From the NCBI RefSeq assembly GCF_026151205.1, contig NC_087073.1:8595411-8659410 (forward strand): 64,000 bases of DNA. The letters are read 5' to 3'. Positions 18,801 through 64,000 of the stretch are shown here, one piece after another. Position numbers and translations under genes: made by a program. Within the stretch, counting starts at the first letter, position 1; every line of letters starts with the position of its first letter. Source of the DNA: Bolinopsis microptera. Lineage: Eukaryota; Ctenophora; Tentaculata; Lobata; Bolinopsidae. The notes under the pieces were generated by a model. The model did not search any database and was not told the DNA's origin. It saw only the letters and a list, made by a program, of their open reading frames with translations.

Positions 18801-21800
18801 GAGGATGGGTAGCAGGAGTAGGTTGACAGCAAGCTAGAGAAGAGTGGTATTATGTATAAGGTGTAAAGAGCTTGTAACTATAGACAATTTTACTATTGAG
18901 AATGTTATCCCTTTAGCCGAAAAGTAAAATCAAATATTATTATCAGGTAGATTTGCGATTGTCAGCAAGTAGGAAAGTAAGACAGTACCGAACTTTAAGG
19001 ACCCCAACAAAGTCTGATCAACAACTAGCTACCAGATGTAACTCTCAGATAGCTCTCCAAGCTTCCAACTTCTCAGACCTTTTCGGTAATCTACTCGTGC
19101 ACTTATCTGCAATTTCTTCTCATATTATTTTCTCTTATAAACCGCAGCAGTTCATCACAGAAGGCAGAGTTTCTGAGCATGCTCGCAGTTAAAATCATTC
19201 TAACATTTTTATTTGTCAGGCTGTAGTTGGACATGGTTACCCCACAACTATAATAATGACTGTTCCGGCTGCACTGCATTCCATTTGGACCCCACCACCA
19301 TGACATACGGCTGGGTTAACACTGAGTGCAGCAAAACACTCCATTTAGCTTGTAAAGGACTGGGGGAGGGAGAATTCTCTGTTTCTCCTGACTTTCAACA
19401 TCTTCCTAACAACGGGGACGTTCTAGCTTGTGGGGGACACCTGAGATTTGCTTTGCCTTTATCACCCAGGTAAGATGATACAGATTGCAGGTTTCAGGGG
19501 TGTTGAGTGGTTACTACAACCGTGAGGTCGAGGTTTCGAGAACGAGATGTTCTAGATATAAATGTTCTTATTATTCAAAATAATTGCAATTTCAGGGAAG
19601 CATTCAACCTAGCTGATGGAATGTGGAGACATGGATTATCTCACGTCTGGTTACCTCGAATTGAAGGATACACGTGCACTGATGTCGGTAAGACCTTCCT
19701 TAAAGTTTTATCGTGATATGCAACAATAGTAGAGAAACATACAAAATATATTTCCAAATATTTGTAATTTAGAAATGTCTACCCGTAGTGCAACTGTTTG
19801 ATAGCCTATTGACCAACATGAAATTTCAGCTCCAGACATCCAATGTGGAGAGCCCGATATCCCTACAAACGGCAGTCTTATTGGGGAAGATAGTGGGTTT
19901 GATGCTCTAGTCACTTACCAGTGTGATCTGGGATACAAACTCATTGGAACTGAGACTAGCATGTGTCAATCTAACGGTTCCTGGTCCGGTTCTGTCCCGA
20001 TTTGTCAGAGTAAGTTCAAGCTCCTCAACTTGGAAATTTCTGTAAGGAGTTGAATGTTTGGAAAAAACTTATCACTTTAGGAGTTTTCTTGTTTAAGATT
20101 TACTTGTTTTAAGACCATTTTATCACTTCAGGAGTTGACTGCGGAGTGCCACCCCGAATAAAGATGGGAAGAGTGTACGGGACGAGTACAGATTACGGGA
20201 GTATGTACGGTTACACGTGTAACTGGGGTCACGTGTTCGAAGGACGAGCCAGCATTGTTTCCATAGTTACCACGTGCCAGGAAAATGGACGCTGGTCTGT
20301 CGAAGTTCCCGATTGTATACGTAAGTATTACATTATTTGTAAGTCTGGCAGTTCACTATTTACCACAAAATTATATTTAATATTACGCAGAAGGCGTTCT
20401 TTCTCGCCCCTTCTTAAATCTGAAAAGCTCGATCCGTACTTATTTTCATAACTCCCACTTTCTTCAGAAAGGCAGTGCGAAGTAAGCGAGTGGGGGGAAT
20501 GGGGCGAGTGCTCGGAGTCTTGTGAGGGTGGGACACAGATAAGGTCTCGGGAAATCCTGTCCTCCCACGGGAACGAGATAAACGGGAACTGTCCCTCCCT
20601 GGAGGAAATCAGAGTTTGTAACACCCGGAAATGTGACACGTGCACCACCAAGGTTTACAGAGTCCCCCTGGAGGCTGATCAGTGCAGAAGTGCTGAGCGG
20701 GTCACTAACAGGGTCAGTATTCTTGTTATAGAGTTAAATACTTACAGGATAGGAGGGTAAATCCACATAGACTTATAGTTATAGACTAATAAGAGGGTAA
20801 ATCCAGATTCGATTTTGTTGAAATCTCAATTCTCACTACTTTGATTAATGAGTAAACGCAGAAATTTAAAATGAAGTCCAGCCGAACTTTGCATGATTTA
20901 TCGGAGGACCTATTTTTACTCATTATCCAATCTAGGTAAACTATAGGTAAAAATATAATACTAATCATAAGCTAAAATGTACTAATCTTTGTATTCTAAA
21001 TGGGGAAAAAGAAGAAACATTGTCAGTCAGTCGAGAAAATTGTCAGTCAGGCTATATGGCAGCTTTGTAGATGTTGTGACTATGCTAGTAGTGGTCCCAG
21101 GCTTGCGACTGGAATTGCGGTGTTAAATCGATTTAATGGTATACCAACGATCCACCTCCCACTTGTTGTTTGGTACTTAGCATTAATAGTGTTAGCTGTA
21201 GCCATTTATGGCAAGAATCTTAAAACTAATGGGGATGACAAGGAAAAGAGGAAGGAAAAAGAATAACGGAACAAACAATTAATTAAAGTATTTATAGGAG
21301 CATTAGATATTGTAATTACAAGCTTCAATAATAAATCACTGACTAAAACTTCTAATTTAAATGACACTTGGTACGCTCGCCCATTTTCACTGGTCAGTCT
21401 GAACTTCGGTTTAGCACGTTGTACACTTATTCACCTAAGTTTCAGAATTTGTTCAGTTTAGCAGAGTTAGTACCCGTGTTTCAATAAATCAAAAGATATC
21501 AGGGGAGTTCTTTAATAATGTTATGGTCATCTAGAATACCGAACTTCCTGAAAACGTTATCATATTTCCTCAGACAACGTTTAATGCCTTTAATCAGTCT
21601 ATCACGGCTATATCCTCTATCAATTAGAATTTTGAATATTTTGTGAAGATGGGAGGTAAAGATATCCAATCTAGTGCAAACATTACCATATCTAAGAACT
21701 TGACTTGAAAAAACGTTGTAGCCAACCTCGGTTGGGATGTTACTGTGAGGAAATGTAAGGGATACAACATGAAAATTAAAATCATCGGTTTTGTTATACA

Positions 21801-22689: not shown

Positions 22690-25600
22690 CACTTAACTTA
22701 CTTGTACTTGTACTTGAAAAGGTCTCCTCCTAGTCGTTGGAGTGGCCTGCACCACAAAGTAACTCCTTTCTCCGGTGTATTAGACCTCTCCAGTGAACCC
22801 TGTCTGTAGCTTGTTGTTCTGCATCTTCTATCGTGATGTTATCGACACCTGTGAAGATTGCTGCATCCTCCCGGACACATGACAACCAGTTTTTCCGAGG
22901 TCTACCTCTTGACCTTTTACCATGCTTTGGGATCCAGTGCAGAAGATAGTTGGGTATTCTTTCTTCTGGCATCCTCACCACATGGCCAAACCATCGGAGT
23001 CTAGCTGCTCGTACGAAAGTATCAACAGGGGCGATGTTAGCCCGCTTAAGTACATCAGCATTAGATACATGATAAAACCATTTTATTTTCAGGATCCTCC
23101 TGAGACATCTATGATGGAACACCTCAAATCTTTTCATCTGCGTCTGTGTGGTATTCCATACCTCACTTCCATAAAGCAGTATAGTGAGAACAGCCGCTTT
23201 GTAAATCCTGATTTTAGTTGGAGTCTTGATGTTGCGACTGTACCATATACTGCTGAGCTGATAGAATGCCCCAGAGGCCTTTTGAATTCGAGCTGAAAGT
23301 TCTTTGTCAATTGTTCCATTCGCACTGATGATTGCACCCAAGTAAGTGAAATTGCTGACCTGCTGTATTGGGAGACCTTCCACATTGATGTCCATAGTGT
23401 CGTCTTTAGAATACGGCCTCTGCGATGCACTTTTGCTGACAACCATGCTCTGTGTCTTGCCAGCATTAATCTTCAGACCCGCATAGGCACTGTATTTGCA
23501 GAGAAGGTCAGTGGTTTCCTGCAGCCCCTCTTTTGAGTTATCTAACATAGCCATGTCATCAGCGTAATCAGTGTCCAAAAGATGTTTCTCTTCTACCCCG
23601 GGGGCTGGCAGCTGTAATAAAGCCCCTTTGCTAATGACCTTGTTCAGTTCCATAAGGTATGCCGAAAAATTCAAACAAAAGTTGAAGACTGGTGGTCCCT
23701 GTATATCACCTTGCCCAGTACCCGAGTTGACATCAAACCAACCTGTAACCTCTCCATTGACCCTAACAGCACTAACTGTGTGAGTGAAGAACGCCTTCAT
23801 AATTCTAATGTACTTGTCAGGTAAGCCGTAGTGCTGCATACTTCTCCAAATGAACTGCCTGTCAATTGAATCAAAAGCTGCTTTGAAATCAACAAAATTA
23901 ATATACAGAGGGATATTATACTCAATGCATTGGTGTATAATACAGCGGAGTGAATAAACCTGGTCAATACATGAGCGATTCTGTCTAAAACCACTTTGAT
24001 TTTCCCGGAGGAATCTTTCCATGCCATTGCTAAGTCTCCGCAGGAGTATCATCTGCAGGAGCTTCGAGGCTGTGGATCTTAATGTAATGCCTCTGTTGTT
24101 AGCGCAATGAGAGGTGTCACCTTTCTTTCCAACGATGATAATAACACCTTTGGACCAATCCTCAGGAATCTTCTCATCTTCCCACACTTTCTTGAACAAC
24201 ACAATTAGTTGATCGACCAACCCATCCTGTCCATACTTAAGTTGCTCGTTGGTGATACCATCCACTCCTGGACTTTTGTGATTCTTGAGTTTTTTGAGGG
24301 CATCAACAATCTCGTTTCTTGTAGGAGCTTCATCCGAATCGGAAAGGTCGTCAAAACTGGGTTGCGGAGGGATGTTGTCTAGGTCAGAAATATTGGCCTC
24401 TTGCGGGGGAGGGTTCAATAGCCTAGAGAAGTGCTCTTTCCACCTTTCTTTCTGGGCATGTGGGTCGGCAATCAACTGGCCAGATACGTCTCTAACTGCA
24501 GTTGACTGCTTCTTCTTCTTTCCAGATATGACATTGATCTTCTGCCATACCTCACGTTGCTGACCTTTTCTCGCAGCTTCTTCCAAGTCATTGGCCATTC
24601 TACGTGCCCAGTTGTTATCGTCCACCTTGCTACTTTTTTTAAAGAGCTTATTCAATCTAGAATACTCTGACCTGTTAGCGTTCGAATTAGGGTCTTTACG
24701 CTTAAATTCCTTACGGTTCTTCAATAATTCTTTTGTCTTCTGAGATTGGTGCCTGTCCTTCTTTTTTCGAGGTCTTTGCCCAAGGATTTCCATGGAAACT
24801 TGTTGGACAGTTGTCTTGAAGTTGTCCCACATTGATTCCAGGTCAACCTCAGGTTCCAAACAGTCAAATTTGTTTCTCAGAACAATATTGTATTCGGAAA
24901 CAAGTGAATGATCACGCAGATGCTCAATAGCAGGAATCTCAAGCTTACGTTCCTGCTTCTTTTTCACTGACATAAGCTTCATTCTCAGTCGTGCTCTTAC
25001 CAAATAGTGATCAGACCCAATGTCAGCCCCCCTACAAACTTTTACATTTAGCAAGGAGCCTCCAAACTTCTTACTGATACAGATGTGGTCTATTTGGTTT
25101 ACAGTACGACCATCAGGTGATCTCCACGTACCTTTATGTATATCCTTTTGCTGAAACATAGTGCCCCCGATGGTAAGTTGGTGGGCAATGCAAAAGTCCA
25201 ACAATCGGGTACCATTGTCATTTGATGAGCTGTGAAGCGAGTGTCCACCAATGACACCTGACATAGAACTGCAGTCCGATGTGACCTTAGCATTAAGATC
25301 ACCGAGCAGTAATTTTAAATCATGTCGGGGTAGCTCATCGAATGCACTTGACAACTGCTGGTAGAATTCATCCTTATCGTTATCTGAAGCCCCCTCAGTT
25401 GGCGCATATGCCACAACAACAGAGATGTTCAGGTGTTGACTATGCAGCCTTGCACTCAACAAACGGTCAGATATTGGTAGATAGGAAATTAATGAATTTT
25501 TAGTCCTCTTTGAAAGGGTAAGACCGACACCTCGCCTTCTTATACCGTCCGTCCTCCCTGAATAAATAAGTAAGGAGCCATTATCCAGTAGCTCTGATCC

Positions 25601-26050
25601 TGTACCAGGCATATGGGTCTCAGTTATACCCAGCAAGTCCAACTTATACTCAGAGATATTCTCTGATAGCTGGAACAACTGACTTGAACTACTTGTCAGA
25701 GATAATACATTCCATGTCCCAAATGTAAGACCTGTTTTAGAATAATTTGCTGGCTGTTTCTTATTAGAGTCGGAGTCCACATGGGTGATCTGTGGAGAAA
25801 TAAATCTGCTACAATGACGTGTTCTCCCAACACTCATCTGGCCACGGGGGTCCCTTAGGCTTTGCCCCGCCACCTTCATACTGGTATCATCCGTCCTTGC
25901 AGAGGGAGCCACACACCGTTTCTTGTTGTTACTTTGTGATGTTTCTGCAGCAAATGTTTAGAGAGGAAAAGTTGCCAGCATCTCGCACCCGGTTTTTTAT
26001 CGACCTTTGCCTGTCTAGATCCATAGTGTTTTGTTGCACGTCATCTGTTT
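22690..26050 (-). mobile_element. Non-LTR retrotransposon (LINE), apparently near full length
   Basis: The element reads on the minus strand. Its 3' end carries a short tandem tail, (CAAGTA)n, at about 22690-22720, as seen in RTE-like LINEs. Its 5' end lies somewhere around 25.9-26.05 kb and is not sharply defined. I could not identify a target-site duplication. It contains one long uninterrupted ORF, described separately. The intact frame suggests recent insertion. Confidence 0.88.
22730..25912 (-). CDS. LINE endonuclease-reverse transcriptase polyprotein
   Basis: About 1,050 codons are open without a stop or frameshift. The likely ATG is near 25879; codons upstream of it are also open. The N-terminal third is an APE-type endonuclease (TFGTWNVLSL, LGITETHMPG, LLLGDLNAK, IGSDHYLV). 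The middle is a reverse transcriptase with VDFKAAFDSID, SGTGQGDIQGPP and the catalytic YADD box in DTDYADDMAMLD. The C-terminal part has the thumb and a basic GRPRKNW segment. All key residues are present, so the protein could be active in target-primed reverse transcription. It resembles proteins often labelled craniofacial development protein 2-like and the RTE group; clade assignment needs a tree. Confidence 0.95.
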   Translation of the reverse strand: MAPSARTDDTSMKVAGQSLRDPRGQMSVGRTRHCSRFISPQITHVDSDSNKKQPANYSKTGLTFGTWNVLSLTSSSSQLFQLSENISEYKLDLLGITETHMPGTGSELLDNGSLLIYSGRTDGIRRRGVGLTLSKRTKNSLISYLPISDRLLSARLHSQHLNISVVVAYAPTEGASDNDKDEFYQQLSSAFDELPRHDLKLLLGDLNAKVTSDCSSMSGVIGGHSLHSSSNDNGTRLLDFCIAHQLTIGGTMFQQKDIHKGTWRSPDGRTVNQIDHICISKKFGGSLLNVKVCRGADIGSDHYLVRARLRMKLMSVKKKQERKLEIPAIEHLRDHSLVSEYNIVLRNKFDCLEPEVDLESMWDNFKTTVQQVSMEILGQRPRKKKDRHQSQKTKELLKNRKEFKRKDPNSNANRSEYSRLNKLFKKSSKVDDNNWARRMANDLEEAARKGQQREVWQKINVISGKKKKQSTAVRDVSGQLIADPHAQKERWKEHFSRLLNPPPQEANISDLDNIPPQPSFDDLSDSDEAPTRNEIVDALKKLKNHKSPGVDGITNEQLKYGQDGLVDQLIVLFKKVWEDEKIPEDWSKGVIIIVGKKGDTSHCANNRGITLRSTASKLLQMILLRRLSNGMERFLRENQSGFRQNRSCIDQVYSLRCIIHQCIEYNIPLYINFVDFKAAFDSIDRQFIWRSMQHYGLPDKYIRIMKAFFTHTVSAVRVNGEVTGWFDVNSGTGQGDIQGPPVFNFCLNFSAYLMELNKVISKGALLQLPAPGVEEKHLLDTDYADDMAMLDNSKEGLQETTDLLCKYSAYAGLKINAGKTQSMVVSKSASQRPYSKDDTMDINVEGLPIQQVSNFTYLGAIISANGTIDKELSARIQKASGAFYQLSSIWYSRNIKTPTKIRIYKAAVLTILLYGSEVWNTTQTQMKRFEVFHHRCLRRILKIKWFYHVSNADVLKRANIAPVDTFVRAARLRWFGHVVRMPEERIPNYLLHWIPKHGKRSRGRPRKNWLSCVREDAAIFTGVDNITIEDAEQQATDRVHWRGLIHRRKELLCGAGHSND

Positions 26051-40160: not shown

Positions 40161-43100
40161 CTTGTCACCCTCTTTACTGGGCTCGGTATTATGAGAGTAC
40201 ATACTGGACGGTATTGGGATCATATCAGGTTGAACGTAGAACCGCGGCATGTACATGTTGCTACCCCCTCCTGCAAGACGAACATAGACAATTAATAATT
40301 AAATTTATTAGCATTAATAATTACTTTAAAACAGGGGATTTATATTGACAGATTTGTGAATTAAGCAACGAGACTAATGTTACATTTGAAACGTATTTCA
40401 AGGTGGAATTATGCAGGATCTGCAGAGTAGAATAGGCTAAAGCTTCTGTTATATCTGCAGCAAGGAATATAACCTAGTAGTAGTACACTTATAACCTACT
40501 ACATTGTAATATAACCTACTACATTTGTAGTTTACAAATAGTAATACTTATGTGATAACTTACCGATAAAACCCTGTTGTTTTCTTATAGCTTCCAACCT
40601 TCGTTCTATCTCCCTCTGATCAGCTCCACTTGACTGTTGAGATCAGGGTTTAGGGGTTTTAAGATTATAACCGGTAAACATATTACTGCAACCTTATGAG
40701 ATTTCTGTGATTGATAGAATAGACTGCTAGGAAGTCCAGATAGGAGATGAGATAAGAAATAGATAAGAGAATTAATGTTAACCTTGTAATGTTGTTGCTG
40801 GTTGGACAGCTGTTGAAGCAAAGCAGGTAACCCAGTCCTGGCCAACAACTCAGGATTAATCTGATCTGTCAGTGCCCTCATCTGTTGCTGTTGCTGCTGT
40901 TGTTGCTGCTGTTGCTGCTGCTGTTGCTGCTGTTGCTGTTGTTGCTGTTGCTGCTGTTGCATCATCTGAAACATTTACAGTTATATATAATATATGAGCA
41001 GAAACCTTTTCTGTTTGCTTTAAACATGATCTGTTCTAGAACACTTGATTGGAATGATATTTTGTCAAGCAGTACGGAATATGTTGGACTTGTTAGACGG
41101 GCTCAAATCTACCACACAGTGTTAAAATACACAGTAAAATACCCCACCACAGTACCTGTTGAAGCTGGTTGGGGGATTGAGTATGAGCTGCCAAAGCTGC
41201 TGCTAACTCCTGATGTAACAGCCTCTGTTGTCTGGCAGCGTCTGCCTGCTGTGACTCTGCTAGAGACCTCGCCACAGCTTGTTGTTGGGATTCCGCTATA
41301 GACCTCGCTACATGCTCTAACGCCTGCATGTCAGTCATTCCCGACACTGATAACCCCCTCAGTTGTGCCTCAGACAGACCAGCAGCTCCTCTCTGTTCGA
41401 TCAGGGACCTCTGCTGTGCCTCAGACAGACCAGCAGCTCCTCTCTGTTCGATCAGGGACCTCTGCTGTGCCTCAGACAGACCAGCAGCTCCTCTCTGTTC
41501 GATCAAGGATCTCTGCTGTGCCTCAGTCAGACCAGCAGCTCCTCTCTGTTCGATCAGGGACCTCTGCTGTGCCTCAGACAGACCAGCAGCTCCTCTCTGT
41601 TCGATCAGGGACCTCTGCTGTGCCTCAGACAGACCAGCAGCTCCTCTCTGTTCGATCAGGGATCTCTGCTGTGCCTCAGTCAGACCAGCAGCTCCTCTCT
41701 GTTCGATCAAGGACCTCTGCTGTGCCTCAGCTATACTCCTCTGTTGTTCTGCGATAGTTCTACTCTGTTGTTCTGCGATAGTTCTACTCTGCTGTTCAGC
41801 TAGTGTTCTGTTCCGCTGCTGCTCTGCTAGTGTTCTGCTCTGTTCTTGTAACCTCTGCCTGTCAACAGTGTATCTGCGCTGTTCAGGTGATGTGGTCCTG
41901 TGTTTCTGTTGTTCTGTTAGATGGTTAACCAAGGTTCTCTGTTCTCTAGATCTCCGCTGTTGGTCCATGATGGTGGACAGATCTTCAGTCCGTGGTATTA
42001 TAGCTGATTTAAACTGGGAGAAAGCTGAACCGCCTGATCCAGGCAAACCTGACCCAGATATAGGTCGCTTCTCAGGGTGCAGAACTCTCGCAGTCGGCAT
42101 CGACCTGGGGGAGCTAGTTTGAGGGGCGTTTGATTATATTTTAAACTGTTGATATCCGGGAAAACACGGCAAATTAGAAAATACATAAACGGAACAAGGC
42201 TGAAAATGAGGAGATGAAAACTGATAACAGTATAAGAAAGTACCTGATGGTTTGATGTTGCTGCCTGGAGGACTCCGGATAACCAGACATCATCTGAACA
42301 TACTGTTGTCCTGCTGCTGACCTGGCTATAGTCTCCTTGTTCTTACTCTTCAAGTATCCTGCATCTGTCTGTATAACTGAAAATATGAGGTTTAGTTCCT
42401 AATCTCTCCAACAATCTGGGATATAGAACAGTACGGTGACTGGGATAACTGGACAATGATTATGGATTTCTCATTATCTCCTACCACAAAATACTAGGTC
42501 CTAGAAGAATATTATGAATGATGTGTGAAAATTAAAGCAATGACTTATCGGATATTTTTCTCAAGAACATACGAGACACTTACACACATACAATACATAA
42601 TTGTTTAAAAATAAATAAATATTAGATCGATGTAACTCGATCACGAAAAGAAGTTTGCATATACATATTATACATGTTATATATACGTTTCCATCACAGC
42701 AAGTACGTTATTTCTAATGTGGTGTGTCGACGTCGTCGTTAACAAATGATTTTATATATAGCTGCTTTATCGTAGCTATAATATAGTCGTTCGTCAACAG
42801 TAACATGAGTACACGTTCAGGTCATATAATCTTTGAAATACTTTAGTGAAGTTTTTTTATTTAGCTAAATTGTCACTTTGAACAATCATTGAACAAGTGT
42901 TCAGTGATATTATGTTACAAGTCTCAACTACAAATACATTGTACATAGTATTAGTACATTCCTGCTAAAATTCTATGGTTTTACTAGTATGTTGTTGTAC
43001 TATGATTCCTTATGTATGCTGCTATCTCTCTATCACGCAGATAAAGTTACTGTTGCATTTTGAGTTTGTCGTTAAGGGTCTGCCCACACTACGCCATGTG

Positions 43101-49100: not shown

Positions 49101-52100
49101 CGGGGCAGGTTCTTGTAGGCGGAGCTGGTGGTGGAGGGTGGTGGACCAGGGGTCTGGATGTCTGGGGCTGGGGTCTTATTGTCTTCTGTTTCGAACCTGG
49201 ATACGATGTACAAGTAATAAATGACCAATACAAATGGTTTTTTATTTAAATAAACGATTTCAATGCTACTTTTATTTCCGTTACAAAGTTATTGACTTTT
49301 AAACAAGAATCTCCAAACTAAAAAGTGGTACTAACTTGTTCCAGCGCTTCATTGAGGGGGGAGCAGCCTGCCCCACATCACTACCCCTGTGAATCTGAGG
49401 CATATGTGGAGGGAGGGTGTGTGAGAAGAGTGGGGGTGGGTTAGCAGCAGGGTTGTGGAGAGGAGGTGGTGGAGGGTGGGAGGTGGGGGCACACTCCTCC
49501 TGGATACTGCTCACCATAGCTATCACATCTGGCGTGGTGGGGCGGGGCAGGTTACTGTCGTGGTGGGGTTCTAGTGGGGGTAGTGTGTTGCAGGACTCAG
49601 AGTGGGACGTTGCTATGCAGGTTGCTATGGAGCGCACTTCCGCATCACGTGAGTTTTCTATCTCTTCCAGTGTTTTCTGTATCGCTGCTGGGTCGCTCTC
49701 TAGCTTTAGATCGTTACCCTGGGAAAGGAGCGTTAGTTGCGAGGAAACAGGTAGTTACTCAAAGTTAGGCCACATTCTAGACAAATCTATGAAAGGAATA
49801 ATTGAGGGTGAATCAGTTGAATTCTGTGATGTAGTTGGATAGCAGTTGACCAACAAACTAGGACCAGTGACCGAACTTTTGAGGGGGTCCCGGACCCCAA
49901 CCGCCAAACGGTGCCCGCGGGGCAGCCGCGCCCATATTTGGTCCAAATTAGGCCCAATTTAGCCAAATACCCTGAACATGCCGAAAATCCAGATTTTAGG
50001 TGCTTTACTTGTAGCTAGTGGTCCCCTGAACTTGTATATGAATTTTCATCAAGATTGGACAAAAAATAACTGAGTTATGAGCCAAAAACCATATGACCAT
50101 ATTTGGGCATATGCACCAAATTTGATCGATTTTGGCCCATAAATTAGTCAAATATCAATATTTTTGAATGAAACTAACTTTATATGGAAGGTAAGCCTAT
50201 ACTACACATTATCTATGATTATCAGCTCAGTATCTACCTAACTGTGGATTCTGTGGTCAAATAATCGCAAAAAATGAACAAAACTGCCCATATCTCAGTT
50301 CGCGATAATTGCAAAACTGACTTCGCTCAAAACAATAGAACTCAATAGGGTTTCAATATTTTTACATGAAATTTTCAGAATCAACGTAGAATCGCATTTC
50401 GACCTTAAGTTTTGTATTATAATTTTGAGTTAGGCCTTTACAAAAATTTGGCGGCCAAATTCCAAAATTTGCAATGCAAAATTCAGAATTTGTCGAAATG
50501 CGATTCTACGTTGATTCTGAAAATTTCATGTAAAAATATTGAAACCCTATTGAGTTCTATTGTTTTCACCGAAGTCAGTTTTGCAAATATCGCGAACTGA
50601 GATATGGGCAGTTTTGTTCATTTTTTGCGATTATTTGAACACAGAATCCACAGTTAGGTAGATACTGAGCTGATAATCATAGATAATGTGTAGTATAGGC
50701 TTACCTTCCATATAAAGTTAGTTTCATTCAAAAATATTGATATTTGACTAATTTATGGGCCAAAATCGATCAAATTTGGTGCATATGCCCAAATATGGTC
50801 ATATGGTTTTTGGCTCATAACTCAGTTATTTTTTGTCCAATCTTGATGAAAATTCATATACGAGTTCAGGGGACCACTAGCTACAAGTAAAGCACCTAAA
50901 ATCTGGATTTTCGGCATGTTCAGGGTATTTGGCTAAATTGGGCCTAATTTGGACCAAATATGGGCGTGGCTGCCCCGCGGGCACCGTTTGGCGGTTGGGG
51001 TCCGGGACCCCCTCAAAAGTTCGGTCACTGGTCCTAGTTTGTTGGCCAACTGCTATCTCGAAACCAAGTTTCACAAAAAAATCAAGGTGAACCCCCCCCC
51101 CCCCCCCCCCCCCCCCCTTAACACTATCTAGACAATGCACTTTACCGAAGGAACCTTATCATTTTAGTAAACATTACCCTCTTTGACAATTGTTGACGAT
51201 ATCTTAGCGGAATAAGCATTTTCATTCGTGGTCTGAAACCCTGAGTGAATTTTAGTGAATGAGTGAACATGCGAATGAGAACAAACAAGTGGGTGAAAGA
51301 AATAGATTTGTAAGTGAGTGTTTGGGGAATTCAGAGAGTGACTTACGTCCAGGACTCCGTTTTCTATCACAGCGTTCACATTAGACATCACATTAGAATC
51401 AACATCAAAATCGTCTATATTTGATCCTGAATCGTCGGAGGAATCTGCTTTAGAGTTAGACTTCATCTGCTCCTGACTCTTTTGACTCTGAAATAAACGT
51501 GCAGGTCAATGCACTGAAAATAAGAAGAGTGCTTAAGTAAATACAACAACGTCAACAAACGGAGGTAACATGTGATGATCAAGACTGCAAGCAACACACT
51601 TTATGAGTTCCAGTCAACATTGGAAAGTCAAAATGAAAACGAAACTAATTTAACGGAAAGTTAAAGTTTCTGTACGTGAATAAGAGAGGGGTTCTTGAAG
51701 CAATCGTCCAGGGCAAGTCGTTTCCTGTGGTTGTGGAAGTAGTGTTTGACTTGCGCTGCTGTCTTGGTAGGAATCTCCTTAGCAATCTTGTTCCAGTTCT
51801 TGCCCAGCTTCCGCAATACTGAAAATTGAATGATCATTATCTTGGTAATCTGGTACTGATATCCAATCAGACGGTAAAAATCCTGGTGGATTATGGACAC
51901 AAATGCCCAATAATACCAACAGCTGACCAAAAAAACAGACAAAGGACTCACATTCTCGTAGAGTCTCAATATCCTGCTCGTTCCATCCTTTACCAGACTC
52001 AGTTTCGTTCTCAACCCTCTTAGACCTCGTGATACGCGGCGTGGCGGGAGATAACGGGGTCTGCAAGTTGATAGAAGCCTAAGATGAAAACAAAATCTAC

Positions 52101-56662: not shown

Positions 56663-57171
56663 TACCTTACAAGACATATTTATAACGTACGAAATGTGGC
56701 GGTTTTCCGAAAATTTCGCCATATTTTCGGACCGCCAAAATTTCGGTCGTCGTAATAGAATCCGTCGCATTATCTTTTAGCATATTTCAATGACTGTGCC
56801 TTCACTGCTTTATTTTGTTTCTAAAAAGTAATATCAAGTAAAATAAATAAATAAATTCTGGCATCTTGGAACAAATTATCACCACACCAATGACCAATTG
56901 AATGTCAAGCAATACAGTTTAAATTTGCATTAAAATACATGTATGTGCTAACATGAAAGTCTTACAGTCTTAATACAGACTAAGTTTGAACATGATTTTA
57001 CCGAATTTCAGAAATTTCCTTACTGCTTACTGTCACAAAAAATGATGAAAAATACCCTTATTTTCTGTGACGTCCGAAATTTGACGATTTTGTTCAATTT
57101 CGCCATATTTTCGGACCGCCAAAATTTCGGTCGTCGCAAATTAGGCCGCCATAAATATGTCTTGTAAGGTA
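56663..57171. mobile_element. TA-flanked MITE with internal direct repeat
   Basis: The ends are inverted repeats CCTTACAAGACATATTTAT, bordered by TA on both sides as in Tc1/mariner elements. A block of about 38 bp starting TTTCGCCATATTTTCGGACC occurs twice in the same orientation (about 56717-56754 and 57099-57136). No transposase is encoded. It sits eight bases after the older element's stop codon. Confidence 0.82.
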
Positions 57172-57880: not shown

Positions 57881-60800
57881 CTAAGGACAAAGGTTAGAGT
57901 CTATAATCCCCATTCTATCTCTCTGAGCACGTCGTTTTCTCAGACTTATATTACCGGTTATATTGAACATACTAAAGTTGTCCCCCGAGTTAAAATCTCT
58001 ACAAACACTCCCTGTCTCACGATGGTTGGTAATTGATGTTTTGTTAGGGGCACTCTTTGGACGTGATATGTGTCCAGTTTGAGTCTGTATGAGAGAAGAT
58101 CGGGTGGCTAAATGAGTCTGGAAAGTAGGGAGAAGGGGTTCTGGGAGAGTTGTGGTAATGTAGGTAGGATGGAAATTAGTTGATAGAGGAGGATGGACAG
58201 GACCAGTGCAAGGCCGGTAAGGGCCAGTATCCCCACCATTAGTGGTTGTATCACATCCTATATAAACTCTGTTAACACACTCCCTATAATTCTGATGGGG
58301 TCTCACTACACATGTCTTCTTCTCGCCCGGTATTGGAGATCTTCTTATCAGTTTCAAGTGAGGGTTATCTTCAGTCCTCATCACCGGGGAACTCCGGATA
58401 TTTGTGATCTCAAAGTTAACCAGGTTGGGGACTTCTTCCGGAATTGGAGAGCTGTGGATGTTGGTGACCTCGAAGTGTTTCACGCTTTCTTCAGGGATCG
58501 GACTGATGATTTGTTTGTTGGGCGAGAAAGCTCTTTCAAGGGAAGGATTATCTGTTTTGATCTTAAGTTGGTTTTCAGGAATGATGTCAAGTTTAATGGG
58601 AACCTGTTTCTTCTTTTTAGTTCTCGTGATATTACTACCGTTCTTTGGTGGCGACGTGGTAATCTCTGGAGGACTGCTTACTTTAGGAGAGCCTGATTTG
58701 CTGCGTTGATTAAGTTTTAAACAGAGTTTGACCTTTCTCGTACCCTTCATCTTGACATTCTCTTGGACACTTTGGGAAAGAGGATCTTCAGGAGGAACCA
58801 TTTTCAGAAGCTCGCTGAAGTTAGGGAAACGAACTTGAGTCTTCGGTTTGAAAGGAAGAAATTGGGCAATAGTGCGGTGAACCACTACATTAGTTCCTAT
58901 GGGAGACGTCTCCTCGCTGACTGATCTTTGTTGAGGTGACCTGGAGGTCACCACGATATCCTTGTTATTTGATCCGGGTACACTCTGCCTAGCTAGCTTC
59001 ACTTTGTCAGCTCTAACTCTGAAGATCTTAGAGCGATACTTAACTTTACAGAACCCGGCTCTGCTTTTGTGTGGTTTAATCAAGCGGCCAGGGATGTTAA
59101 CTACTCTGGGGCCCAGGTTAATGCAGTACAGGTTGTTTTTGTACTCAGGAGCAGAGAATGTAGAGGTGTTTGTCAAGGAGAGTTGCTCGTCTAGTATCGC
59201 TGTTTCGCCTAGCTTTTCTTCAGGAACTCTACTCTCTACTCGATCTTTACTCGTTTTGCCGATGAATGGCTCCAAATCTGTCAGTTTCCACTACATGTTT
59301 CTCGTTTTTGTAGGTGATGGCAATCTTATCATCTTGACTCTTCAGAACTGACATCAAACTCATCGGGACCTTGACCAATCTGTTCTCCAGTTTGGTAACG
59401 TATTTTTCAGGGATGTAGTTAGAACCCAATGGCAGGTTGAGTCTCTTCAACATCGGATAAACTTCCTGCGGGAGGATAAAGATCACTTTACCGTTCCTTT
59501 TCACGTAGTAATTACCCACTTCCTTAGCTGAAGGAGCGAGTTTATCTGCTGGGATTATCTTCCATACTCCGCCCAGTTTTATAGCAACCATGTCCTTCAA
59601 AGATGCAAACTGTTTAGGTGGTTCTATCACCTCAGTAATATGGTCACGCTTGATTTGAGTTAAGACCCCCTCAATTGGGACGAGGAACCCTCCTTGTTGG
59701 CAAGGTTTGATATCAGAACCCAGTACAGAGAACACTCTACCTTGATGAGATATAGAGTAGGTCTTGTTATCACACAGATAAACTAGACTGGTCGGAGAAC
59801 CTACACCAGGGACCCGCACTACTTTCTCAACCTTCCTTCTTGTCTTGTCTATCATCGTCATGAACGTCTCACCATCTTGAGATGTCAGCTCTGTTCCCTT
59901 AGCAGTGAACCAACTGCCCTCAATCAGAACTCTGAAGAAGTCAACAGCCGGCTCTTCAGCACTTTCGATCTGTCGGAACGGGGACCCACCAACATGAGGA
60001 TCACAACCATTCTCACCCAGACTGGAATTCATGGACATCATCTCATCTATCTGTTGAAGAGTGTTAGCCGAGGAGCCCGTGTTGTTCCGACATCTTCCTC
60101 CTCGGAACTTGAGACTGACTGAATCGAACAGATCAGAGTCCGTTACCTCACAGTCCTCACTAGGTACCATAACGTTTAGAGCATCTTTTACAGCCAGAGC
60201 ACTGAACACTTCTAGTCCTGGTAGGTTGCAAAGTTGGTTAACTTTGTCTACAACCTCTATCTCTGAGGAGCACGGAGACATGTCCTCCATTTCCCTCTCA
60301 ATTATCTGCTGCTGTACTGCTTCTATTTCAATCTCTGTTCTAATCCGCTCATTAAGACTGGCTATACCAGGTAGAACTTTATCTTCTAGATTCGAGCCAG
60401 GTTCTACATTCGAGCTAGATTCTACATTTGAGCTAGGATGATTCAGATGGTTTTCCTGTTCGACAGAAAGGGCAATGAAAGCTTCAAGGTGCATCTGCTC
60501 CACTGTGGACGCTTTGTGGCCCAACATGTCGAGTCCTGGTAACTGGGACACTCTCTCTAGCCCATCCTCAGGGGAGGAACTCTCGGATGAAGAGATGGTA
60601 GAGAAGTGAACTTGTTTTCTGTTCTGGACTGGTTTTTTTGGCTCACGTTTCACATTAGGAATCACTTGCGAAAGAAAGGCTGATGGGGAGGCAAATGTTG
60701 CTTTTTGAGATTTATTTGTGATGCTGGCTATGTGATCTAGTTTGATGATGTATTCTTGTATGATATCTTGTCTGGAGGTTGGTCTGGTAGACAAAGAACA

Positions 60801-61703
60801 GGAGGATACATTTATAGGTGACTGCTGTTTAGCGAACCCCTGTTGGGTAATGGGAGGGAATAGAACTTGATGGTCAAACTGGTGAGGAGTGGGCTGATTA
60901 ACTGTCAAATAGTTATTAGTCAGGAAGGTTTGAAGGGGTGAATTCAGGGACTGAATCACACCAGCTTGCGGTAAACTTGTGGCAGACTGACTTGATGGAA
61001 GAGGGTTCTCTACCAGACCTGTCTCACCCTCTACAGACAGCAGATATTTACCAGGCACATCAGTAGGATGAAACATTCCACCAGGCAGAGTTAGAAATCT
61101 ACCATTGAAGATAACATCGTAATTAAGACAAGGGTTGAGATGAGAAGAGGTGGGTCCAGGAGCTACTTCCGAGTAAACACTCTCATCAGTCTCATCCCCC
61201 TCGATATCAGACACTTCCAACAGCTCCCCGTTTATCTCCACCAAGTACCCCTCACTCTCCTCCCCTGCTCTGATAATCTCTCTGCCTTGAACCCTGTACT
61301 TAGTTCCCTCTGCGAGTACAGTGTACACTTTGTCATTCTGTAGAGTCAGTCCCGAGGTAGTGTCTGGTGTAGGTACTACTAAGGAGAGGTCTGAAGAGGA
61401 GAGCGAGTCTGGTTCGGAGGGCTGAGGACCTTGTTCTAGACTCACCTCTTCGTAGGAGAGGACCGGGAACTGTAGCCCGGAGATAGAGCAGGATAGCTGA
61501 CCTGAAGAGCTGAGGTTGAGGTACTCTCGGGGTACAATTACAGGCTGATTGTTGATGAGGACCCTGCAGAACTGTCCTGTTGTGGAGTGTGCTGATATCA
61601 CTGACACACATTCAGGTGAGACACCAGTTGAGACACCCAAGTGCGAGACACTTTGAGACATGCCCTGGTTTTTGAATTGGTGTCCTACTCCCAGCTGCTG
61701 CAT
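57881..61703 (-). CDS. Protein with eight copies of an unrecognised ~45-residue repeat (gene B)
   Basis: An uninterrupted frame runs from the ATG at 61703 to a TGA... region stop at 59247, then continues one base out of frame to 57881. Deleting one T in the TTT at about 59274-59276 would join them (ETDR then LEPFIGKTSKD), giving about 1,280 residues. Repeats begin near 61583, 61328, 61127, 59939, 59762, 59594, 59402 and 59130. Each has the pattern [YF]-x-[VI]...G...[VI]-P...[LI]-x-P...G-x-[YF]-x-[VI]...G....[VI], for example VAIKLGGVWKIIPADKLAPS then GNYYVKRNGKVIFILPQEVY. They should be beta-rich small domains. Between repeats 3 and 4 lies a long Ser/Glu-rich disordered region with an acidic helix. 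No signal peptide or membrane segment. Function unknown; it is a paralogue of the upstream neighbour. Confidence 0.8.
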
Positions 61704-62238
61704 GTAGACGATTGTTGTGCAGTACAACGAAATACAGTAAGCCAAGTACTATTATAAGCAAACCAGGAAGGGCGGGTATAACTGATGACTGACGTTAGTC
61801 ATCCTAATGGCTAATACCCAAGGTTTTCGATTCAAAACCTATAGTTAGAATTGCAATTGTGTAGAACCTTATTTGGGAAAATTTAGTTTATTGATGATTT
61901 ATTAAATGGCATCTTATGGTCAGGTATTTTAAGGGTTCAAGAGAGTGTTTATAGTTTCTTTTTCATATCCAAGTACGATTAACCACAACAGTCTTCAGAG
62001 TCAAAAATAAAATCAACCTTAGCAATAATATCATCTCAATTTTTGAATAGATCACCATATTGAACGTACCAAGCGATTGGCAAATCAAATGATCCTGAAT
62101 TCAGGATACGTAAAGATTTTCAAAAAACACTGCATTCTATAAACCGTTAAAATAGGACAACCACATTGAGCGCATAAAAAGACTTCACTTGTACAGTATA
62201 TAATGAATCTTATGACTTATCAAACCCATTCAGTCAGT
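61704..62238. other. Spacer between the two repeat-protein genes
   Basis: AT-rich, no open frame of note. It should hold the 3' UTR of the upstream paralogue and the promoter of gene B, both on the minus strand. Confidence 0.6.
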
Positions 62239-64000
62239 TCATCTATAATTGTTTTTATTAAATTGATTAAACAGAGTTGACTTCCTAGCAGTAGTAGCAC
62301 TGGATGAGGCGCGAGTAGCACTGGATGAGGCGCGACTCGACGAACTGGTAAACTTCTGACTACTAGAGTAGGTAGATCTCTGAGCAGCTGCTGTCGAGCT
62401 AGCAGCATTCTTTACATTCTCTAAATTCCTGCTGCCAACATTGCACGTGCTCACGTTCTTACTGGTCTCCACATTGCACGTGGGCACGTTTCTATTTCCC
62501 TCATTACACGTGGTCATGGTTTGTACATAAGAGTTGTCTGATAAGGAAACGTCCATGTATGACTTATCAGTGAGGTCCTCTAAGAGTTTGTAGTAGTGAG
62601 GTCCCTTGTTCCTCCTCACATTCACCCATATTGGGGCTCTCACCCCGAACCCATCATCAGCTAACTGCAGGTAATCATCCTCAAATATCACCTGGGCCCC
62701 CTCAAAGTGTGTTCTGATACAAGTTGTTACTTTCCTGATATCCTTGTCGTTAATGTTCCGGGTACCAGAGTTCCTGAGCACGAACACAGGGTCCTCACCC
62801 AGTTCTGTTGAAACTGATCTGATGTAGTCCAGACAGTTTGCAGGGAGTCTCTCTACAAACCAGGTCCTCAGCAACCTCCTACCATCTGCCAGCTTACATT
62901 CCAGGTTTATAACGTCCTCTAGGGGTTTCAGGGGTGCACGTCTCGCTCTAGAATCAAACTAACACTGTCCTTATACTTTACAACCGCGTACCCTGTCTGC
63001 GTTTTAGAGGGTCGCACTGCTTTGGGCCCCACTCTCACCCAGCAGCCTCGCACCAGAGCCAGGAACCCTGGCTCAATGTTATCATCAGACTCAGACACAT
63101 CTTCAGCTGTACACTCCTGACCAGGACATGCTGCAAACTTTACTGTTTTGGTAGGGGACTGAGCAGGAACGTATGGTATAATAGCAGTTCCATTAGGCAC
63201 TATCAGACGACAATCTCCTGCTCTAACTGTGAATTGTCCTGGAACCTGTTTCCTGGGTTTGAACTGTTTCCCAGTCACCACGTACGACACGGACTCTATA
63301 GTCAGGATGTACTGTTTGTCCGGGAACACTAAAGTTCCGTTTATCACCATGGGGATGGGACTAGTAGAGTTCATCTCCACTGCTCTACTGATGTTGTTAA
63401 AAGTGGGGTTGATGTACGGGGTGTTGGCTGTGTCGGTGCGTGCAGGACTCACCGGGGTATCGTTAGGATTGAGAGAGTTGGTTTGTTTGATGTGACTCTG
63501 AGGATTGTATGTAGAGATAGTGAGAGGGTTTGTGAGCTGGCTGCTAAGGTGAGGGTGATTTGCTCTTTCAGTAGGGAGCAGGACGAGGGGATTGGTCCCT
63601 CTTCTTGCAACTTGTTGTCCCACGCCAGGGTCTGTGAGCCCCAGTAGGGAAGCGTACTGTGGTTTGAGTTGTCCCTGTGGATCATACAGTGAACTGAGAG
63701 TCACAACTCCGGGAGGAAGCTCCTCTACTCCAGGAGTAGAATCACTAGAGCTCAGATAGTTGAGGTCCTTCAAACTAGGGTGTAGAGTGTAGTCTGGAGA
63801 CACTGACCTCTGCGTCCGAGCGGCGTGCTGTTCCGGAGAGATCGGGTGAGGGTGTACGGGGGACGAGCATGGAACATGGACTGGAGAAATGGTTGTGTTC
63901 TGAGGGTCAGGATAGTTTCCACCACCAGGCAGTGAAACAGGAACTACACTCACTGCCTTCACGATATACTTCTTGTTGTTGAATATCACCACATACCGTC
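62239..64000 (-). CDS. Paralogous repeat protein (gene A), 5' end outside the window
   Basis: The frame is open from the window edge (RYVVIFNNKKYIVKAV) to a TGA at 62928-62930. It continues one base out of frame to TGA at 62239. Adding one C to the CCCC at about 62931-62934 would join VSLILERDVHP to LKPLEDVINLECK. At least three repeats of the gene B type are present: VVIFNNKKYIVKAV, ILTIESVSYVVTG...GQFTVRAGDCRLIVP, and LALVRGCWVRVGPKAVRPSK...GYAVVKYKDSVSLIL. A long Pro/Ser-rich disordered segment lies between the first and second. After the last repeat comes an unrecognised domain (RTWFVERLPANCLDYIRSV, GAQVIFEDDYLQLADDGFGV) and a low-complexity Ser/Thr/Ala tail. The last codons overlap an AATAAA. 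No function can be assigned. Confidence 0.75.

Follow-up and report, generated by a model that had tools for sequence, protein, structure and literature searches.

The DNA analysed was a 64,000-nucleotide stretch of the Bolinopsis microptera genome (contig NC_087073.1, positions 8,595,411 to 8,659,410 of the forward strand), referred to here as the window. Towards its end, two minus-strand genes, A and B, are arranged head to tail about 0.5 kb apart, separated by an intergenic interval with a GC content of 33% (61749-62238); the coordinates, order and spacing reported in the initial annotation were correct. Gene A runs from 62242 to the end of the window, where it is still open and hence incomplete. 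Its first open frame contains 356 codons (62931..63998, minus strand, open at the window end) and its second 231 codons (62242..62958, minus strand), the latter encoding a C-terminal domain of about 120 residues followed by a Ser/Thr/Asn-rich tail. Gene B (57884-61745, minus strand) likewise comprises two open frames, of 832 codons (59250..61745) and 464 codons (57884..59290), the second of which carries one repeat unit and a long tail. A single frame change, missed previously, was located in each gene, near 62931-62958 in gene A and 59250-59290 in gene B, and since both genes carry one, full-length proteins may not be produced. These frame changes seem likelier to stem from an indel in the assembly or from a genuine mutation than from an intron.

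The tail encoded by the second frame of gene B looks disordered, with basic stretches: Lys/Arg-rich segments were read by eye. Between 57884 and 59275 (minus strand), the tail also carries two copies of a motif (HFEVTNIHSSPIPEE / NFEITNIRSSPVMRTE) that includes Ser-Ser-Pro and may be a site of phosphorylation or docking.

Several other features were recorded elsewhere in the window. A MITE-like element (56663-57171) has perfect 21-nt terminal inverted repeats (mean of 0.00 matches in 100 shuffles) and an internal direct repeat (44 nt, 98%). On the minus strand, a LINE-type element (22733-25957) carries a single open frame of 1075 codons for an endonuclease and a reverse transcriptase (RVT_1, E 3.7e-25), a Myb-like DNA-binding domain (51661-52014, E 1.2e-09) is probably an exon, and an open frame at 41096-42133 contains a 17-residue tandem repeat (EAQQRSLIEQRGAAGLS and near copies), the opposite strand of which is also open for 151 codons (41302-41754). 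On the plus strand, open frames at 19805-20757, probably exons, encode a Sushi domain and a spondin-like TSP1 (thrombospondin type 1) domain. The Sushi and TSP1 frames, the LINE-type element and the Myb-like domain mark the window as eukaryotic and, very probably, animal.

Ten complete, beta-rich units of 41-48 residues were delimited in the two genes, all on the minus strand, together with one hairpin truncated by the window end. The unit boundaries were set by hand, which favours the units somewhat in the tests described below. Gene A contains the complete units A1b (63174..63317) and A1c (62931..63071), as well as A1a (63939..63998), the lone hairpin of a unit cut at the window end; A1a matched the first half of a unit by profile and, by eye, the second half of A1c too, so that it could be either half. 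Gene B contains Ba (61440..61574), Bb (61194..61331), Bc (61002..61124), Bd (59805..59942), Be (59631..59765), Bf (59454..59594), Bg (59274..59408) and, in the second open frame, Bh (58994..59134). At least eleven copies had been claimed: the eight of gene B stand, but the "three or more" of gene A amount, within the window, to two complete units and one hairpin, the first copy counted as a repeat being the single hairpin at the window edge. The best conserved columns of the unit are hydrophobic, glycine or proline; no other residue was common to most of the ten units, and no shared binding residues pointing to a ligand were found among them. The net charge of the units varies from -6 (Bb) to +12 (Bh), with -3 for Bc and +5 for both A1b and A1c. 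Such conservation of hydrophobic, glycine and proline positions together with a variable charge would suit modules that keep their fold and differ in their partners.

For assessment of the repeat against chance, each unit was left out in turn, scored with a profile built from the remaining nine and compared with 500 shuffles of itself. In eight of the ten cases, at least 497 shuffles scored lower (all 500 for six units, 499 for Bd and 497 for Bc), and the result was weak for Bg (468/500) and Ba (461/500). When the other units and A1a were masked, the true site ranked top within genes A and B for seven of the ten units; the site of Bg was second, that of Ba fourth, and Bc ranked only fifth in spite of its shuffle score. 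With A1a unmasked, the true site came first for three of ten, and A1a was the best other place in seven of ten. Smith-Waterman Z scores were also calculated for the 45 unit pairs, each pair against 200 shuffles, and were above 4 in seven of them: Bb-Be (8.4), A1c-Bf (7.2), A1c-Bh (6.3), Bg-Bh (5.1, Bg being weak alone), Bc-Be (4.7), A1b-Bb (4.4) and Be-Bh (4.2). The lowest pair scored -1.5.

Less specific searches gave mixed results. Leave-one-out profiles run against the whole six-frame window placed eight of eleven copies (A1a included), at E values of 8.9 to 87 only; Ba, Bc and Bg were missed, and a site outside the two genes outscored the copy in all eleven cases. An unbiased 10-site motif search reached 61.4 bits, no better than locally shuffled proteins (6 of 12 nulls were higher), with nine of its ten sites falling on unit hairpins. 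The 20-site search (46.0) exceeded all 12 nulls (maximum 43.4), and 11 of its 20 sites lay on hairpins, in register. The units are a real repeat family of divergent modules, and the shared spacing proposed in the initial annotation was borne out by the shuffle, rank and pairwise tests.

The two halves of the unit were compared by aligning a profile of the first halves with a profile of the second halves (hhalign). A probability of 85% and a score of 18.7 were obtained; none of 300 column permutations scored as high (highest 10.8), and the reversed profile scored 9.8. Shared strand alternation could inflate half-versus-half scores, and the reversal controls for part of this effect only. The 10-site motif search also pooled the halves unprompted (six first halves, three second halves and one unrelated site). 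By eye, both halves share the pattern aromatic-x-V-x-x-x-G-x-x-x-x-V-x-x-x-x-hydrophobic-x-P, and the only mostly aromatic columns of the unit, 3 (8/10 units) and 29 (6/10 units), occupy equivalent positions of the two halves. Because the halves resemble each other, the basic building block is probably a hairpin of about 23 residues, doubled in each unit. The beta-rich repeat of about 45 residues described earlier exists, but two hairpins of about 23 residues are a better description of it than a single repeat.

One of the ten units, Bf, was modelled with AlphaFold2 from ten paralogous rows (Bf included). The best model had a pLDDT of 90.0 and a pTM of 0.67, and mean pLDDT ranged from 83.9 to 90.0 over the five models. 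It contains six strands (E5-10 E13-18 E22-24 / E32-36 E39-43 E48-50), arranged as two consecutive strand-strand-short helix-strand halves, and has the five or six short strands and the short helical turn before the last strand that characterise SH3-like folds. A Foldseek search of the PDB returned 975 matches at E up to 10, and the best 50 of these were Sac7d and its derivatives, integrases, Hfq, the PHF1 and TDRD2 Tudor domains, PWWP and SH3 domains. We take all of these 50 to be SH3-like small barrels. No match was significant at E 0.001 or better, either in the PDB (best E 0.15) or in BFVD (best E 0.051). Its structural neighbours suggest that the Bf model closes as an SH3-like barrel, and the earlier guess of an SH3-like or Tudor-like fold agrees with the nearest Foldseek neighbours among the matches listed, none of them significant. 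The unit probably belongs to a known, SH3-like, fold class. A probable fold class and not kinship with SH3-like families is claimed, because PMC5906684 cautions that convergence has produced SH3-like shapes.

Among the matches listed, the retroviral integrase C-terminal domain, Sac7d and Hfq/Sm were nearest to the Bf model (E 0.15-0.55, TMq 0.41-0.58). The units differ from these domains in the likeness of their halves and in being present many times per chain, on long linkers, and no sequence similarity was found. When genes A (incomplete in the window) and B were scanned with Pfam, no integrase family, and hence no catalytic core linked to the units, was detected. The PHF1 Tudor domain aligned with a TMq of 0.59 and an rmsd of 2.9 over 54 columns (E 0.46), whereas the identity is 9% and the units do not have a conserved set of aromatic columns. 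The G..hhIP...L....G motif of the unit, its two hairpins and its spacing also resemble the AbrB/SpoVT swapped-hairpin domains. This candidate was dropped: Pfam and NCBIfam gave no match to it, none appeared among the best 50 of the 975 PDB matches, and the confident Bf model is a single chain.

All four open frames were compared with family libraries. A Pfam scan at E up to 10 gave one match, which lies in the low-complexity tail of gene A (E 1.1), and no Tudor or chromo-like family. NCBIfam yielded nothing credible (lowest E 0.014, with 14.6 bits where the cut-off is 445) and neither did PHROGs (lowest E 0.035); both of these lowest matches, taken as chance, lie on parts of protein P0003 that extend into the low-complexity tail of that protein. 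PADLOC, applied to three of the four frames, found nothing credible. In PDB sequences, the ten-unit profile had no match below E 0.3, and the single proteins P0003 and P0001, the only two submitted, had none below E 1.2. Six peptide patterns per protein recovered no relatives from viral contigs (P0001-P0004) or genome contigs (P0001), and tblastn in phages gave one match at E 0.6 for P0003 and none for P0001. The absence of relatives says little, because the collections searched were viral and prokaryotic. A narrow-term literature search found no account of the family, which does not mean that none has been published. The family is apparently uncatalogued in Pfam, NCBIfam, PHROGs, PADLOC and PDB sequences; the proposal of an undescribed family holds as far as the absence of credible matches in those libraries reaches; the fold class is probably known.

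In pairwise comparisons, A1c was closest to Bf and Bh, and A1b to Bb, consistent with common descent of A and B. Unit order agrees only in part between the two genes. The tandem duplication suggested in the initial annotation is plausible from these unit similarities: the A1c-Bf and A1b-Bb scores (Z 7.2 and 4.4) favour it, but A1b-Be reaches only 2.4. The separate C-terminal domain of gene A had no clear counterpart in BLASTP comparisons with gene B, the best E values being 0.016, on its low-complexity tail, and 0.084. A single-sequence model of this domain was poor (pLDDT 55.2, pTM 0.47) and gave, at low confidence, the order strand-strand-helix-strand-helix-strand-helix. RadC and APOBEC chains led its Foldseek list, in which the best E was 0.019 and no TM among the 50 matches listed exceeded 0.40; these matches are untrustworthy. 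A doublecortin or ubiquitin-like fold for this domain was considered and is unsupported.

We propose that genes A and B are tandem paralogues encoding modular scaffolds, with SH3/Tudor-like modules, each made of two similar hairpins, on disordered-looking linkers, a reading that we consider evenly poised between right and wrong. The two frames of each gene could instead be linked by short introns, with no frame error at all. GT-AG pairs of 25-159 nt that join the frames without a stop are available in both genes (37 in A and 39 in B), but each listed pair would, at a minimum, cut off the final residues of A1c or Bg, whichever adjoins it, and by eye the splice sites look weak; we regard introns as unlikely. 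That A and B are decaying pseudogenes, which formerly coded such proteins and are now broken, is very unlikely in our judgement: each gene does have one frame change, but one change per gene is also expected from assembly error, and the 356, 231, 832 and 464 codons are otherwise open and coding-like in composition, although the latter point is largely circular because three of the four frames served to train the codon model.

A further reading bears on the units themselves, which could belong, as strongly diverged members, to a known SH3-like superfamily, either chromo-like/Tudor or an integrase-type C-terminal domain; the proteins would then act on chromatin or nucleic acid. The presence of integrases, Sac7d and the PHF1 Tudor among the Foldseek matches listed (TMq up to 0.59), the basic charge of Bh (+12), A1b and A1c (+5 each) and the lysine/arginine-rich stretches seen by eye in the gene B tail are consistent with such an origin. 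Against it, neither structure nor sequence searches returned a significant match, the conserved columns include no set resembling an aromatic cage (a cage in single units is possible), two of the units are acidic (Bb, -6; Bc, -3), and SH3-like shapes can come from convergence (PMC5906684). We hold this origin to be possible but doubtful.

The scaffold proposal has as its observed parts the repeat, the likeness of the halves and the confident all-beta model of one unit. Duplication of a hairpin of about 23 residues would have produced a small SH3/Tudor-like beta module, and all other units would fold like Bf. The modules may bind short peptides or nucleic acid, several modules per chain would allow multivalent binding, and gene A may gain from its C-terminal domain an activity that gene B does not have.

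The broader claim is of an uncatalogued domain family, probably of animals, whose SH3-like barrel formed by duplication of a hairpin of about 23 residues, the duplication being still visible in the sequence, and which is spread across tandem scaffold genes; it is advanced only tentatively. If true, it would provide a living example of a small barrel arising from a hairpin, and if the hairpin duplication is real, a natural case for small barrels growing from repeated hairpins. For the organism, genes A and B would represent an unnamed family of multidomain scaffolds.
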